28,225 nucleotides of DNA from a virus: positions 1 through 28,225 of IMG/VR virus record IMGVR_UViG_3300025928_000027; one strand, 5' to 3'. This document shows positions 2,899 to 27,796 of the stretch, in pieces; position 1 is the stretch's first letter; each line of letters opens with the position of its first letter. Made by a program: the position numbers and the translations under genes. The notes beneath the pieces were generated by a model. It searched no databases. It had not been told where the DNA came from and worked only from the letters and a program-made list of their open reading frames with translations.

Positions 2899-4371
2899 GT
2901 GGCCACACTGGAGCAGGCCCGCCAGCTCGTCGATACCCTGTCGGCCGAGCTGGCGCGGCGTACCGGCGATATCCGGCGCCACCACGACTACTACACCGGC
3001 CAGCACAATCTGCGCTTCGCCTCGGACGAGTTCGCCGACTACTTCTCCAAGCGCTACCGCGGCTTCGCGGACAACTGGGTCCAGGTCGTCGCCGATGCCC
3101 CGGTGGAGCGGCTCACCGTGACCGGCATCCAGGCTGCGGGCGCTGAGATCGCCGACACCGACACCTGGGAAGTCTGGCAGCGCAACGACCTGGACTCGGA
3201 ATCACAGCTCGGCTTCCTATCCTCGGTGCTCGGCGCCCGCACCTTCATGCTGGTCTGGGGCGATCCGAAGAACCCCGACACGCCGATCGTCACCTTCGAG
3301 GACGCCTCCTCGGCGATCATCCTGTACGAGCCCGGGTCCCGAACTCGGCGCCGTGCGGCGATGAAGCGCTGGCAGGACGGCTTTGGCGAGCACGCAACGC
3401 TCTACCTGCCCGACGAGGTGTGGAAGTTCACCCGGGCCCCGCAGAACCTCATCATCAAGCCTCCGCTGCTGGCGGCGGCTGACGAGGAGGTGCGGCCATG
3501 GATGCCGCGCGACGTCGGCGACGAGCCGAACCCGCAGCGCAACCCGATGGGCGTCGTGCCGATGCGCGAGCTGCCCAACCGCCCGATGCTCGTCGATCAG
3601 CCGATCTCGGACGTGGCAGGCACGATTGCCATGCAGGACGTCATCAACCTGCTGTGGGCCCAGTTGCTCACCGCCTCGGACTACGCCTCGCTTCAGCAGC
3701 GCATCGTCTTGGGCGCGGACCTGCCGAAGATGCCGATCCTGGACGACAACGGCCAGCAGGTCGGCGTGAAGCCGGTCGCGCTGTCCAAGTTCATCAAGGA
3801 GCGCGTCCTGTGGCTGGAAGACCCCGATGCGAAGGTGGCCAGCTGGCAGGCCGCTGACCTGAAGGCGTTCACCGACGTCATAGAGGTCGCAGTCGGGCAC
3901 CTGGCTGCGCAGACGCGTACCCCGCAGCACTATCTCATCGGCAAGATGGCCAACCTGTCCGGCGATGCTATGGCCGCGGCCGAGACCGGTGTGGTGAAGA
4001 AGGCTCAGGAGAAGCAGCTTTGGTACGGCGCCGGAATCCGCGGCGCTGCCGAGCTGATCGCTCTGGCCCGCGGCGAGACAGCCAAGGCTCGCGCGATGGC
4101 TGCCGGCCGGGTGCTGTGGGCCGATGCCGAGTCGCGGAACATCGGCCAGCTCACCGATTCGCTGCTGAAGCTGCGTCAGATCGGCTTCCCGTTCCAGTTC
4201 CTGGCGCTGCGGTTCGGCTTGACGCCGACCGAGGTCGCGCAGCTGGTCGAGATGCGCGAGTCCGAAGCCGCGATGGACCCGGTCAACGCGCTGATGAACC
4301 AGGCGAACCCGGCCGCCGGAGTGGACTCCGAGACCGGCGCTGACGCCGAGCAGGACAGCGAAGCCGCCTGA
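2899..4371 (+). CDS. Portal protein (SPP1 gp6-like)
   Basis: A 490-residue protein starting at GTG 2899 with GAGGTGA just upstream (2888-2894). Portal proteins form the dodecameric ring at one capsid vertex through which DNA enters and to which the neck attaches. The N-terminal part (roughly residues 1-130) has the aromatic, acidic character of gp6-type portals (RHHDYYTGQHNLRFAS; DNWVQVVADAP). The middle has the wing and stem segments, followed by a segment resembling the portal tunnel-loop region (HYLIGKMANLSGDA). The C-terminus is acidic. It lies between the large terminase and the MuF-like gene, the standard order in tailed phages. Confidence 0.9.
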   Translation: MATLEQARQLVDTLSAELARRTGDIRRHHDYYTGQHNLRFASDEFADYFSKRYRGFADNWVQVVADAPVERLTVTGIQAAGAEIADTDTWEVWQRNDLDSESQLGFLSSVLGARTFMLVWGDPKNPDTPIVTFEDASSAIILYEPGSRTRRRAAMKRWQDGFGEHATLYLPDEVWKFTRAPQNLIIKPPLLAAADEEVRPWMPRDVGDEPNPQRNPMGVVPMRELPNRPMLVDQPISDVAGTIAMQDVINLLWAQLLTASDYASLQQRIVLGADLPKMPILDDNGQQVGVKPVALSKFIKERVLWLEDPDAKVASWQAADLKAFTDVIEVAVGHLAAQTRTPQHYLIGKMANLSGDAMAAAETGVVKKAQEKQLWYGAGIRGAAELIALARGETAKARAMAAGRVLWADAESRNIGQLTDSLLKLRQIGFPFQFLALRFGLTPTEVAQLVEMRESEAAMDPVNALMNQANPAAGVDSETGADAEQDSEAA

Positions 4372-4379
4372 GCGCCGCC

Positions 4380-5330
4380 GTGGACGCCTGGACGATTGCC
4401 CGGCGCCATGCCGCATACCGGCGCCGTACCGCCGCAGCTGCGACCACAGCGGCCGAACGCGCCTGGCGCGCCATGGACCCCGCCTCTCTGGCCGGGTCCT
4501 GGTCCCTGGCCAAGCCGCGGATCCTTGCCGCAGTCGCCGCCGGCCAGCGTGTGGCGGCGGACACCGCCAGCGCCTACGTCGCCGACATGGTCAGCGCGCA
4601 GGGCGGTACCTCGACGGCGACGCAGCAAGTCGACGCCTCCGCGTTCGCCGGAACCGCCGCTGACGGCCGACCGCTTGCCGACCTGCTTCAGCTCCCGATT
4701 GCCACGGTCTACAGCCGGCTTTCGCAGGGCATGGGCGTCCGGCAGGCGCTGAACCTCGGCGGGGGCCTGCTGTCGCTGCTTGCCGATACCGAGGTGGCCG
4801 ACGCTGGCCGCGGTGCCGATTCGGTGGCGATGGCTGCCGAGACGAGTGTCGAGGGCTTCATCCGGGTGGTCTCCGGGTCCGCGTGTGGTCGCTGCGCCAT
4901 CCTGGCCGGCCGTTGGTACCGCTGGAACGCCGCTTTCGATCGGCATCCTCACTGCCACTGCCAGCAGGTTCCGGCCACGGACCGCGAGCGCATGGCGCCG
5001 CACCTGACTGATCCGCACAGCTACTTTGACTCGCTCAGCCGTGCCGAGCAGGACCGCGCGTTCACCGTGGCCGGCGCTCAGGCGATCAGGGACGGTGCGG
5101 ACATTTTCCAGGTGGTCAATGCCCGCCGCGGCATGTCCACCGTGACGACGTTCGGCAGGCAGCTGTCGACGACCACCGAGGGCGTCACTCGCCGCGGATT
5201 CGCCGGCCAGCGCATGCGTGCGGCCGGTGTGTCATCTCCGGTCCGGCTGACGCCGCAGGCCATCTATGAGCTGGCCTCCGACCGCGCCGAGGCGATCCGG
5301 CTTCTGTACCGGTTCGGCTACCTCCTTTAG
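4380..5330 (+). CDS. MuF-like minor capsid / head morphogenesis protein
   Basis: A 316-residue protein starting at GTG 4380, 8 nt after the portal stop. Its first half is a helical, Ala-rich region. Around residues 165-200 there is a dense metal-binding-like cluster (C169-x2-C172, then H189, H191, C192, H193, C194). Cys/His clusters of this kind occur in actinophage MuF-type proteins encoded after the portal. Such proteins are minor head components carried in few copies per virion and probably contact the portal. No toxin domain or capsid protease motif is visible at the C-terminus. The assignment rests on position plus the Cys/His signature. Confidence 0.72.
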   Translation: MDAWTIARRHAAYRRRTAAAATTAAERAWRAMDPASLAGSWSLAKPRILAAVAAGQRVAADTASAYVADMVSAQGGTSTATQQVDASAFAGTAADGRPLADLLQLPIATVYSRLSQGMGVRQALNLGGGLLSLLADTEVADAGRGADSVAMAAETSVEGFIRVVSGSACGRCAILAGRWYRWNAAFDRHPHCHCQQVPATDRERMAPHLTDPHSYFDSLSRAEQDRAFTVAGAQAIRDGADIFQVVNARRGMSTVTTFGRQLSTTTEGVTRRGFAGQRMRAAGVSSPVRLTPQAIYELASDRAEAIRLLYRFGYLL

Positions 5331-6029: not shown

Positions 6030-6884
6030 GTGTCCATCAAGCTGTTCAAGCCCGAGATCTGGTCGGCGAACCTGTTGGTCGCCGCCCGGAACGCCCTCGT
6101 GTATGGCGGCCCCGAGGTCGTGAACCACGACTACGAGGGCGACATTTCCGAGTACGGCGACACGGTCCGGATCACCTCGATCTCGCGGCCGTCCATCGGC
6201 ACCTACGTGCCGAACAGCACCGTCATCACGCCCGAGCAGATCACCGATGCGCAGCGTACGCTGACGATCGACCAGGCGAAGTACTTCGCCTTCTCGGTCG
6301 ATGACGTGGACGCCCGCCAGGCCCGCGCGAACGTGATCCCGCAGGCCATGTCCGAGGCCGCCTACGCGATGGCCAACACGGTCGACCAGTACATCGCGTC
6401 GTTCTACACCCAGATCCAGTCCGCGAACGCGCTGGGCTCGATCACGGTCAACTCCTCGACCACGCCGACCGACGCCTACGACAAGGTGCTGGTCCCGCTG
6501 AAGATCAAGCTGGACCGCGCGAACGTCCCGACCAACGGCCGGTACACGATCATCACCCCCGAGATGCACGGCTGCCTGCTGCGCGACGGCCGCTTCATCA
6601 AGGTCTCCGAGTCCGGCACCGACGAGGCGCTGCGCAACGGCATGGTCGGCCGCGCGGCCGGCTTCAACATCATGCTGTCGAACAACGCGCCGAACACCAC
6701 CGGCTCGGAGTACGCCATCACGGCGGGCGTGCAGTCGGCGATCTCGCTGGCGATGCAGATCGCCAAGACCGAGGCCTACCGCCCGCAGTCGTCCTTCTCC
6801 GACGCCGTCAAGGGTCTGAACCTGTACGGCGCGAAGGTGCTGCGTCCCGACTTCCTGGCCTCGGCCCTCGTCACGGTCTCCTGA
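6030..6884 (+). CDS. Major capsid protein
   Basis: A 284-residue coat protein starting at GTG 6030 after AGGAG (6020-6024). The pattern fits the P22-coat-like branch of the HK97 fold: an N-arm followed by a segment on symmetry and surface loops (GGPEVVNHDYEGDISEYGDTVRI), a long helical spine (about residues 100-135), and a C-terminal beta/helix region containing FNIMLSNN. There is no N-terminal delta domain or protease site, consistent with the separate scaffold gene just upstream. It forms the icosahedral shell. Codon use is strongly GC-biased and regular, as expected for a highly expressed gene. Confidence 0.88.
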   Translation: MSIKLFKPEIWSANLLVAARNALVYGGPEVVNHDYEGDISEYGDTVRITSISRPSIGTYVPNSTVITPEQITDAQRTLTIDQAKYFAFSVDDVDARQARANVIPQAMSEAAYAMANTVDQYIASFYTQIQSANALGSITVNSSTTPTDAYDKVLVPLKIKLDRANVPTNGRYTIITPEMHGCLLRDGRFIKVSESGTDEALRNGMVGRAAGFNIMLSNNAPNTTGSEYAITAGVQSAISLAMQIAKTEAYRPQSSFSDAVKGLNLYGAKVLRPDFLASALVTVS

Positions 6885-9724: not shown

Positions 9725-10012
9725 ATGTCCGTCTACTGGACCCGCGCGCATCACCCCGAACTCGGGGACGTCGTGCTGCCGCTCGCCGCCATGGAGTCCT
9801 TCCCGGACTGGGAGGCGGTCGGCGAGCCGTCGACCGATGACGGCGCACTGCGCGCCGAACTCGAACGCGAGCAGGCCGCCGCCGCGATCGCCGCTCTCAT
9901 CGCCGAGTCCGCCTCGGCCAATGCCGCACCGTCCCCGGCGCCGGAGGCCTCCGCGCCCGCCGCCAAGCCCGAATCTCCGACGCCGACCGGCGCCGACCCG
10001 AAGGAGCAGTAG
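9725..10012 (+). CDS. Small acidic protein with Pro/Ala tail, unknown function
   Basis: A 95-residue protein starting at ATG 9725, 5 nt after the previous stop. Its first part contains WTRAHHPELGDVVLPLAAM and an FPDWEAVGEP segment. A helical ELEREQAAAAIAALI stretch follows, and then a disordered Ala/Pro/Ser tail. Like 7298-7615 it is a short acidic protein following a small beta-rich protein, but it lacks the terminal AWVAW motif. It lies just before the tail tube gene. Function is unknown. Confidence 0.6.
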   Translation: MSVYWTRAHHPELGDVVLPLAAMESFPDWEAVGEPSTDDGALRAELEREQAAAAIAALIAESASANAAPSPAPEASAPAAKPESPTPTGADPKEQ

Positions 10013-11019: not shown

Positions 11020-11336
11020 AGGCGGCGCGAGCCTGGGCGGTCCCATGGTCGGTGTTCCTGGGCCGCGTGCCGGTCCCGGGCGAGCCGCTGTGGACCGATG
11101 AGGACCGGGGATGGGCCATCGCCCTACTGGAGTACGAGGCCGACCTCTGCTCGGGCTGCGGGCAGTCGCGCAGCGAGTCGATGGATCCCGAGAACGAGTT
11201 CCGCTACCGCCCGACTGTGCTGCGCTGCCACGCCTGCAAGACGGTGGCGGATGCGGCGGACAACTTGTCCGAGCAGAAGACCAAGACCGGGGGCCTGATG
11301 ATCGGCGTCAAGCTGGAGGGAGGTGGGCATGGCTGA
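10486..11336 (+). CDS. Tail assembly chaperone GT (made by -1 frameshift)
   Basis: The predicted product is 283 residues: 163 from G, then 120 in the -1 frame from 10974. After the slip the reading is SVPF-LARRLRESLALRREVEA, a basic amphipathic helix, then aromatic AWAVPWSVFLG, then WTDEDRGWAIALLEYE. Two Cys pairs follow (C-x2-C in CSGCG and C-x2-C in CHAC), a probable zinc ribbon. There is no stop between the slip site and 11334. In lambda the T part recruits the tube protein to the tape measure/chaperone complex. The -1 frame could also start at GTG 11052, but no ribosome site is seen there. It ends overlapping the tape measure start (ATGGCTGA). Confidence 0.78.
10968..10974 (+). other. -1 ribosomal frameshift site (C CCT TTC)
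   Basis: The heptamer CCCTTTC is a canonical X XXY YYZ slippery sequence. It is in the correct phase for gene G: zero-frame codons are GTC (10966), CCT (10969) and TTC (10972). Slippage by -1 lets both tRNAs re-pair (CCC, TTT), and reading then continues in a frame open to 11336. It lies near the 3' end of G, as in lambda and most siphophages. Confidence 0.8.
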
Positions 11337-26545: not shown

Positions 26546-26767
26546 TTAGGTGGCGACCCTCGCCGAGCTGCGGCGCCGAGCGCGGCAACAGGCCTTGATG
26601 TAGACCTGGTTGGCGTACTCGCGCGCCGCGGGATTGTCGACGATGACCGTGCTGTCGATGACGCAGTACTCTTCGCCGTCTTCTCCAGTGGCTGAGATGG
26701 CGGCAATGCCCTGTAAGTCTGTGTTGAAGACGTGCACCGGCGGTACGACCGGCAGCTCCATGTCCAC
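26546..26767 (-). CDS. Small unknown protein downstream of the LexA box
   Basis: 73 residues from GTG 26767, with AGGAGG (26777-26782) 9 nt upstream; ATG 26761 is the alternative, with a long gap. A strand-rich part (VPPVHVFNTDLQGIAAISATG; EYCVIDSTVIVDN) is followed by a helix (REYANQVYIKACCRARRR) and a basic, Cys-containing tail. I do not recognise it. It lies leftward of the repressor and next to the SOS box at 26867-26882, so it might be a damage-inducible antirepressor or another switch protein. GC content of this region is lower (58% in 26641-26700) than in the late genes. Confidence 0.6.
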   Translation of the reverse strand: MDMELPVVPPVHVFNTDLQGIAAISATGEDGEEYCVIDSTVIVDNPAAREYANQVYIKACCRARRRSSARVAT

Positions 26768-26857
26768 TTGCGGATTCCTCCTGTATGAACTTCCCCGCGC
26801 CCTTGCGGCGAGCTTCTACATTCCTCCTGATGGGGGGGCTGCGCAAGGGGTCTAGCG

Positions 26858-26886
26858 TTGACGTATTCGAACCTGCGTTCGATCGT
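26858..26886 (+). promoter_or_regulatory. Rightward promoter-like sequence overlapped by a LexA box
   Basis: TTGACG (26858-26863), a 17-nt spacer, then GATCGT (26881-26886). The -35 matches 5 of 6 and the -10 keeps the key A and final T. The LexA box lies in the spacer, as in SOS promoters. Transcripts would run antisense through the repressor gene and could reach the early operon. No gene on that strand starts nearby. Confidence 0.4.
26867..26882. promoter_or_regulatory. LexA (SOS) operator, perfect 16-bp palindrome
   Basis: TCGAAC-CTGC-GTTCGA matches exactly the actinobacterial LexA consensus TCGAAC-N4-GTTCGA. It lies 18 bp past the repressor stop (26901) and about 100 bp before the start of the small leftward gene (26767). 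The chance of the 12 fixed bases at a given place is 1 in 4^12 with equal base use, so about 0.002 in this window. Confidence 0.8.
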
Positions 26887-27368: not shown

Positions 27369-27461
27369 GGCATGTCTCCCTATTCGCTGAGTAACCCCAC
27401 CGTCACTCATCCTCCGGGAGTTTGCCATAGATCACCAGTACCTACCACCAACGTGCGGCGT

Positions 27462-27499
27462 ACTTGGCGGAAACTTGGCAATCAGTGGGAGCGCTTGGT
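27462..27499. promoter_or_regulatory. CTTGG repeats in the repressor/Cro-like intergenic region
   Basis: CTTGG occurs at 27463, 27474 and 27494; the first two are in ACTTGGC repeats 11 bp apart and the third is 20 bp on. Spacing near multiples of one helical turn puts them on one side of the DNA, suggesting operator half-sites for the repressor or Cro-like protein. The whole region 27369-27565 has no gene and is relatively AT-rich (53% GC in 27421-27480). Confidence 0.4.
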
Positions 27500-27529: not shown

Positions 27530-27559
27530 TTGTCCAATGGTAGATCCTGGGTGTACGTT
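27530..27559 (+). promoter_or_regulatory. Promoter of the Cro-like early operon (leaderless)
   Basis: TTGTCC (27530-27535), an 18-nt spacer, and TACGTT (27554-27559), followed by 6 nt and ATG 27566. It is the best-formed of the three leaderless promoters here. No ribosome site is present. Confidence 0.65.
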
Positions 27560-27565
27560 TCACCC

Positions 27566-27796
27566 ATGAACCTCCACGGACCAACCATCCGGGCCCGCCG
27601 GCTGGCGCTGGGGATGACCCTCAAGGACGTGAAGACCGCGACCGGCATCGACGACAGCAACCTGTCGAAGATCGAGCGCGGCCAGCTCCCGGGGGCCGCA
27701 CACCACAAGGCCGTGGCGCTGGCGGACTGCCTCAAACTTCCCCTCGACAAGATCTCGCCTGAGTTCGAAGAGGCTCAGCGTCTGGCGGCGAAGTGA
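27566..27796 (+). CDS. Cro-like XRE helix-turn-helix regulator
   Basis: 76 residues from ATG 27566. It is a single helix-turn-helix domain: IRARRLALGMTLKDVKTATGI then DDSNLSKIERGQLPG, followed by two further helices (KAVALADCLKLPLDKISPEF). Size and composition match Cro-type or XRE regulators. It starts a rightward operon, divergent from the repressor gene, and GTGA-overlaps the next gene. Expected role: to bind operators in the intergenic region and tip the switch towards lytic growth, though a host-type regulator is possible if the window passes beyond the prophage. Confidence 0.78.
   Translation: MNLHGPTIRARRLALGMTLKDVKTATGIDDSNLSKIERGQLPGAAHHKAVALADCLKLPLDKISPEFEEAQRLAAK

Follow-up and report, generated by a model that had tools for sequence, protein, structure and literature searches.

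The DNA analyzed here, IMG/VR virus record IMGVR_UViG_3300025928_000027 (28,225 bases; hereafter the window), derives from a soil actinobacterial virus. Near its right end, the gap between a lysogeny repressor gene and a small leftward gene contains a LexA/SOS box. The surrounding genes are arranged in the order serine integrase (+), small gene (-), helix-turn-helix (HTH) repressor (-), and divergent Cro-like HTH gene (+), with the integrase and the adjoining small gene convergent (Table 1). An in-frame ATG upstream of the repressor start, at 27428, offers an alternative start that would give a 175-aa protein. The terminase shares 62% identity with its counterpart in Streptomyces phage Kromp, which makes an actinobacterial host probable.

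TABLE 1 Features of the lysogeny region at the right end of the window
Feature	Position	Strand	Remarks
Large serine integrase, 466 aa	25078..26478	+	Resolvase, Recombinase, and zinc-ribbon Pfam domains; PHROG integrase, E=5e-83
Small leftward gene, 73 aa, acidic; proposed antirepressor	26546..26767	-	GTG start at 26767; ribosome binding site (RBS) AGGAGG at ~26777-26782; homologues in L002 and L010
LexA/SOS box TCGAACCTGCGTTCGA	26867..26882		Sole site in the window with ≤2 mismatches to TCGAAC-N4-GTTCGA
Lysogeny repressor, HTH_3/XRE, 155 aa	26901..27368	-	Pfam HTH_3, E=1.8e-6; stop codon 26901-26903
Candidate operator-like sequence TGGTAGGTACTGG, switch region	27435..27447	-	85% inverted match to 27538-27550; identical in L002
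Candidate operator-like sequence TGGTAGATCCTGG, switch region	27538..27550	+	Inverted match to 27435-27447; identical in L002
Divergent Cro-like HTH gene, 76 aa; heads the rightward, presumed lytic, operon	27566..27796	+	Pfam HTH_3, E=1.6e-8; 95% identical in L002

A LexA-type box in the repressor gap and its conservation

The sequence-only reading of the window had reported a perfect 16-bp palindrome of the actinobacterial SOS-box type in the gap between the repressor and the small leftward gene, and both the match and its placement hold. The box has two perfect 6-bp arms separated by the non-palindromic 4-bp spacer CTGC and lies between the repressor stop codon and the GTG of the small gene. 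Exact TCGAAC-N4-GTTCGA and exact GAAC-N4-GTTC each occur once in the window, in both cases at this site. Under Markov models of order 1-3, chance alone would give 0.002-0.006 perfect sites per window, and about 1e-5 to 3e-5 within the 133-bp gap. Since about 0.3-0.65 copies of the looser core GAAC-N4-GTTC are expected per window, the case rests on the full arms and their conservation. The box also fully fits the LexA motif tCGAAC-N4-GNNCGa obtained from Streptomyces venezuelae by chromatin immunoprecipitation sequencing (PMC9380542).

Two related virus records have a box in the corresponding gap. L002 was found by scanning viral contigs with the repressor, and L010 by a scan with the integrase. 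L002 has the same gene order as the window, with a repressor that is 77% and an integrase that is 94% identical, and holds a single perfect box, TCGAACGGACGTTCGA, in 35,303 bases. This box differs in sequence from that of the window. When the two gaps are aligned, 12 of the 12 consensus bases are kept, compared with two of the four spacer bases and 52% of the other gap columns (P about 4e-4), and no second register of the alignment keeps all 12 corresponding positions. L010 is more distant (integrase 48%, repressor about 30% identical to the window). Its gap holds TCGAACGAACTTTCGC, which is two mismatches in 12 away from the full palindrome and is the sole site with ≤2 mismatches in the 16,014-base record. 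In each of the three records (28.2, 35.3, and 16.0 kb), the box is thus the single best site, in the equivalent place: 18, 18, and 19 nt past the repressor stop codon and 99, 95, and 92 nt ahead of the small-gene GTG in the window, L002, and L010, respectively. The small gene itself is kept on the repressor's strand in all three, with a GGAGG-GTG start and an acidic product of 68-73 aa.

Taken together, the consensus match, the low chance expectation, and the recurrence of the box in L002 and L010 bear out the earlier assignment as a LexA operator, and the link to host LexA is well supported at the sequence level. A chance match, or the operator of a different regulator, is very unlikely. Other HTH repressors could bind TCGAAC-type palindromes, and such matches do occur, as illustrated by a perfect one near a tail gene in record L009 that has no obvious role. 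Against this stand the chance expectation given above, the placement and conservation of the box, and the operator candidates of the phage's own repressor (TGGTAG-N4-TGG), which do not resemble it.

Further scans returned few relatives. Viral contigs scanned for the box together with CCTTGCG, a motif found just beyond it, yielded 10 loci; among those listed in full, the contig of L002 was the sole real relative, and most of the other loci fell within coding sequence. Neither the repressor nor the small protein was matched in named phage and plasmid collections, searched at the DNA and protein levels, and a genome-contig scan with the repressor returned unrelated HTH matches only. No LexA-like gene is present in the related virus records.

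Target of the box

The earlier reading had allowed the box to control either the small leftward gene or the rightward promoter containing it. Only the first option is favored by the comparison. Leftward from the box, the small gene is the only conserved gene reached before the convergent integrase, and box, position, and gene recur together in L002 and L010, whereas the TTGACG hexamer of the proposed rightward promoter does not. Because the small gene is the sole conserved gene in reach and the hexamer is not kept, we prefer the small gene as the conserved target, the direction of control being deduced from this arrangement. Control of a rightward promoter is most improbable. TTGACG does precede the box in the window, at 26859, and a transcript from there would run antisense to the repressor gene and could lower repressor levels. 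However, the hexamer has no counterpart at the corresponding position of L002 or L010, the promoter scan found no promoter-like site, and a short rightward open reading frame (ORF) in L002 merely mirrors the conserved repressor coding sequence.

In the window and L010, a TAGAC[CA] stretch lies 11-12 nt past the box, with CCTTGCG after it, and could be a -10 region; the corresponding sequence in L002 is CAAAG-CCTTGCG. RNA folding of the small-gene leader gave nothing beyond shuffled sequences. The L002 leader (4551-4600) includes the short ORF MGPLSRERG and a stem that would occlude the RBS, with a fold no stronger than that of shuffles; neither was seen in the window or L010.

The repressor, the small protein, and a proposed SOS-coupled switch

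As the sequence-only reading had noted, the repressor has no visible self-cleavage domain. For the window, L002, and L010 proteins, Pfam searches gave HTH families only above the cut-off and no Peptidase_S24, a test at the level of sequence. The HTH was 434 repressor-like in a PDB sequence search, and the AlphaFold model of the repressor was poor (predicted local distance difference test [pLDDT] score of 46). Since no S24 self-cleavage domain was detected, a separate route of induction is needed, if the repressor responds to damage at all.

The small protein, with an isoelectric point of 4.4-4.9 across the three phages, is a candidate for that route. Its homologues lie at 4598-4813 in L002 (37% identical to the window copy) and at 6499-6705, minus strand, in L010 (28%). 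Of six genes compared between the window and L002, it has diverged most, with a nonsynonymous divergence (dN) of 0.63. The two halves of the repressor diverge unequally between the same records, the HTH half being 86% and the C-terminal half 68% identical. If partner and target coevolve, the C-terminal half is expected to diverge in this way beside a fast-changing small protein. Unchanged operators, a changing repressor C terminus, and a small protein changing faster still would fit an antirepressor that binds the C-terminal half, a pattern that is suggestive only.

Upstream of the repressor, a stretch of ~90-100 bp (window 27371-27470; L002 upstream of 4001) is essentially 100% identical in the two records, above the rest of the region. 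It includes the silent sites of the possible 20-aa N-terminal extension and one operator-like site, and may represent the promoter-operator core.

What is observed is the box, which exceeds chance expectation and keeps its position, together with a small gene whose presence and start signals are likewise conserved; for LexA binding, direction of control, and antirepressor activity, we infer the following scheme. In a lysogen, host LexA bound to the box would silence the small gene, which runs leftward from 26767 to 26546 in the same direction as the repressor gene, while the repressor would keep the lytic genes off. Upon DNA damage, RecA would trigger self-cleavage of LexA and the small gene would be expressed. 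Its acidic product of ~70 residues would then inactivate the repressor, most likely via the C-terminal half, resulting in prophage induction. We consider the odds of this scheme as a whole somewhat better than even. Damage to host DNA probably turns the small gene on, and this may serve to wake the virus.

Several points weigh against the scheme. A scan limited to sigma-70-like promoters found none in the gap of the window, L002, or L010, and no intrinsic terminator was detected in any of the three gaps. No start can thus be assigned to a LexA-controlled transcript, and something would have to keep transcription of the repressor gene from running on. The small protein is without a recognized relative or fold: there was no match among Pfam families, NCBIfam families, or PDB sequences, the AlphaFold model was poor (pLDDT of 52), and a fold search gave no match with E<1. 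The arrangement is known from three genomes only, and L014 and L015, which have more distant integrases, show no recognizable box in the corresponding gap. A one-mismatch site in L014 lies inside the repressor coding sequence and was judged uninformative. The region is also mosaic or recombinant, with synonymous divergence (dS) ranging from 0.1 to 1.2 between the window and L002; the covarying divergence is no more than suggestive.

The missing transcription signals bear on another arrangement, in which LexA would act as a roadblock 18 nt past the repressor stop, halting the repressor transcript until damage allows read-through and co-expression of an inactivator. The repressor and small gene are co-directional with no promoter or terminator found between them in any of the three phages, and the stop-to-box spacing is tighter than the box-to-start spacing. 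On the other hand, actinobacterial promoters often match the scan consensus poorly, and the stretch past the box in the window and L010 could be a -10 region. No such role of LexA is known to us, and we consider this arrangement unlikely. Its stronger form, an undescribed actinophage family of ~70-aa acidic antirepressors directly behind the repressor with LexA as a removable roadblock past the stop codon, is a shade more doubtful.

The box could also be a LexA operator of the small gene as proposed, with a product that serves as a recombination directionality factor (RDF) for the adjoining serine integrase or in another SOS-timed function. The small gene adjoins the integrase convergently, excision is required on induction, and serine integrase RDFs are a diverse set of small proteins. 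However, the integrases of the window and L002 have a dN of only 0.04, and a dedicated RDF would be expected to be better conserved than the small protein is. Moreover, expression of an RDF alone, with the repressor still active, would not induce the phage. This function is fairly unlikely, and the preferred reading remains that of a LexA-controlled antirepressor.

Other LexA-like boxes were noticed in the scanned records. Seven of these, L033 and L035-L039 (locus position 3873) and L034 (2159), carry a one-mismatch box, TCGAACATACTTTCGA, TCGAACACATATTCGA, or TCGAATATGTGTTCGA, roughly 100 bp upstream of an ALGW-type HTH regulator; in L036, the box lies in a switch region with a divergent HTH gene. 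These would be a different, direct link to LexA or the regulator's own operator. L024 (110,865 bases) has two perfect TCGAAC-N4-GTTCGA sites (9980-9995 and 11194-11209), each flanked by a shared TATTGACACCTAGC element, suggesting a repeated regulated promoter. In L009, a perfect TCGAACTGGAGTTCGA at 1172-1187 lies between tail and lysin genes, directly before an ATG with an RBS, and may be coding sequence (ELEFEE) or chance. It was set aside, as it is near the tail gene and the contig ends before the equivalent region.

Comparison with known systems

How temperate actinobacterial phages sense DNA damage when their repressors have no self-cleavage domain is little described. The Streptomyces prophage Samy was reported to be unresponsive to mitomycin C (PMC11302927), and no LexA-controlled antirepressor of an actinophage was found in the literature searched, the coverage of which was incomplete. 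A conserved LexA box and a small gene behind the repressor would make a testable SOS-coupled switch, and the small protein a candidate new family of antirepressors in actinophages.

Recruitment of host LexA as a phage regulator is shared with the Bacillus phage GIL01, where LexA acts with gp7 (PMC4551915), and with CTXphi, where it acts with RstR. In both, LexA directly represses phage promoters in lysogeny control, whereas the window phage has a dedicated repressor and LexA apparently governs a side gene. A phage tail fibre gene that carries a LexA site belongs to the LexA regulon of S. venezuelae (PMC9380542); that is a structural phage-type gene on a host chromosome, in contrast to the window gene beside a lysogeny repressor.

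The closest parallels are phages with LexA-controlled antirepressors. In the Salmonella phages Gifsy-1, -2, and -3, the small LexA-controlled antirepressors GfoA and GfhA act on the non-cleavable repressors GfoR, GfhR, and GtgR (PMC3121763). The system proposed here likewise combines a short HTH repressor without a self-cleavage domain and a LexA box ahead of a small gene, and would couple induction to host SOS. Unlike in Gifsy, the small gene is single and part of the immunity region: it follows the repressor directly, shares its strand, and adjoins a serine integrase. The phage is also actinobacterial. Similarity to Gifsy at the sequence level was not established, and the function of the window system is a prediction. 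According to citations in that paper, the antirepressors of coliphage 186 (Tum) and the phage-plasmid N15 (AntC) are also under LexA control and inactivate the lysogeny repressor. The earlier reading had likened the window to these two while calling its arrangement different, which is apt as far as mechanism goes. Tum has 146 aa and a DinI-like half, compared with 73 aa and no recognized domain for the window protein, and the host phylum differs. By analogy rather than as a proven member, the window system may be set beside the LexA-antirepressor modules of the Gifsy, 186, and N15 type, which it resembles on paper in the way it would work.
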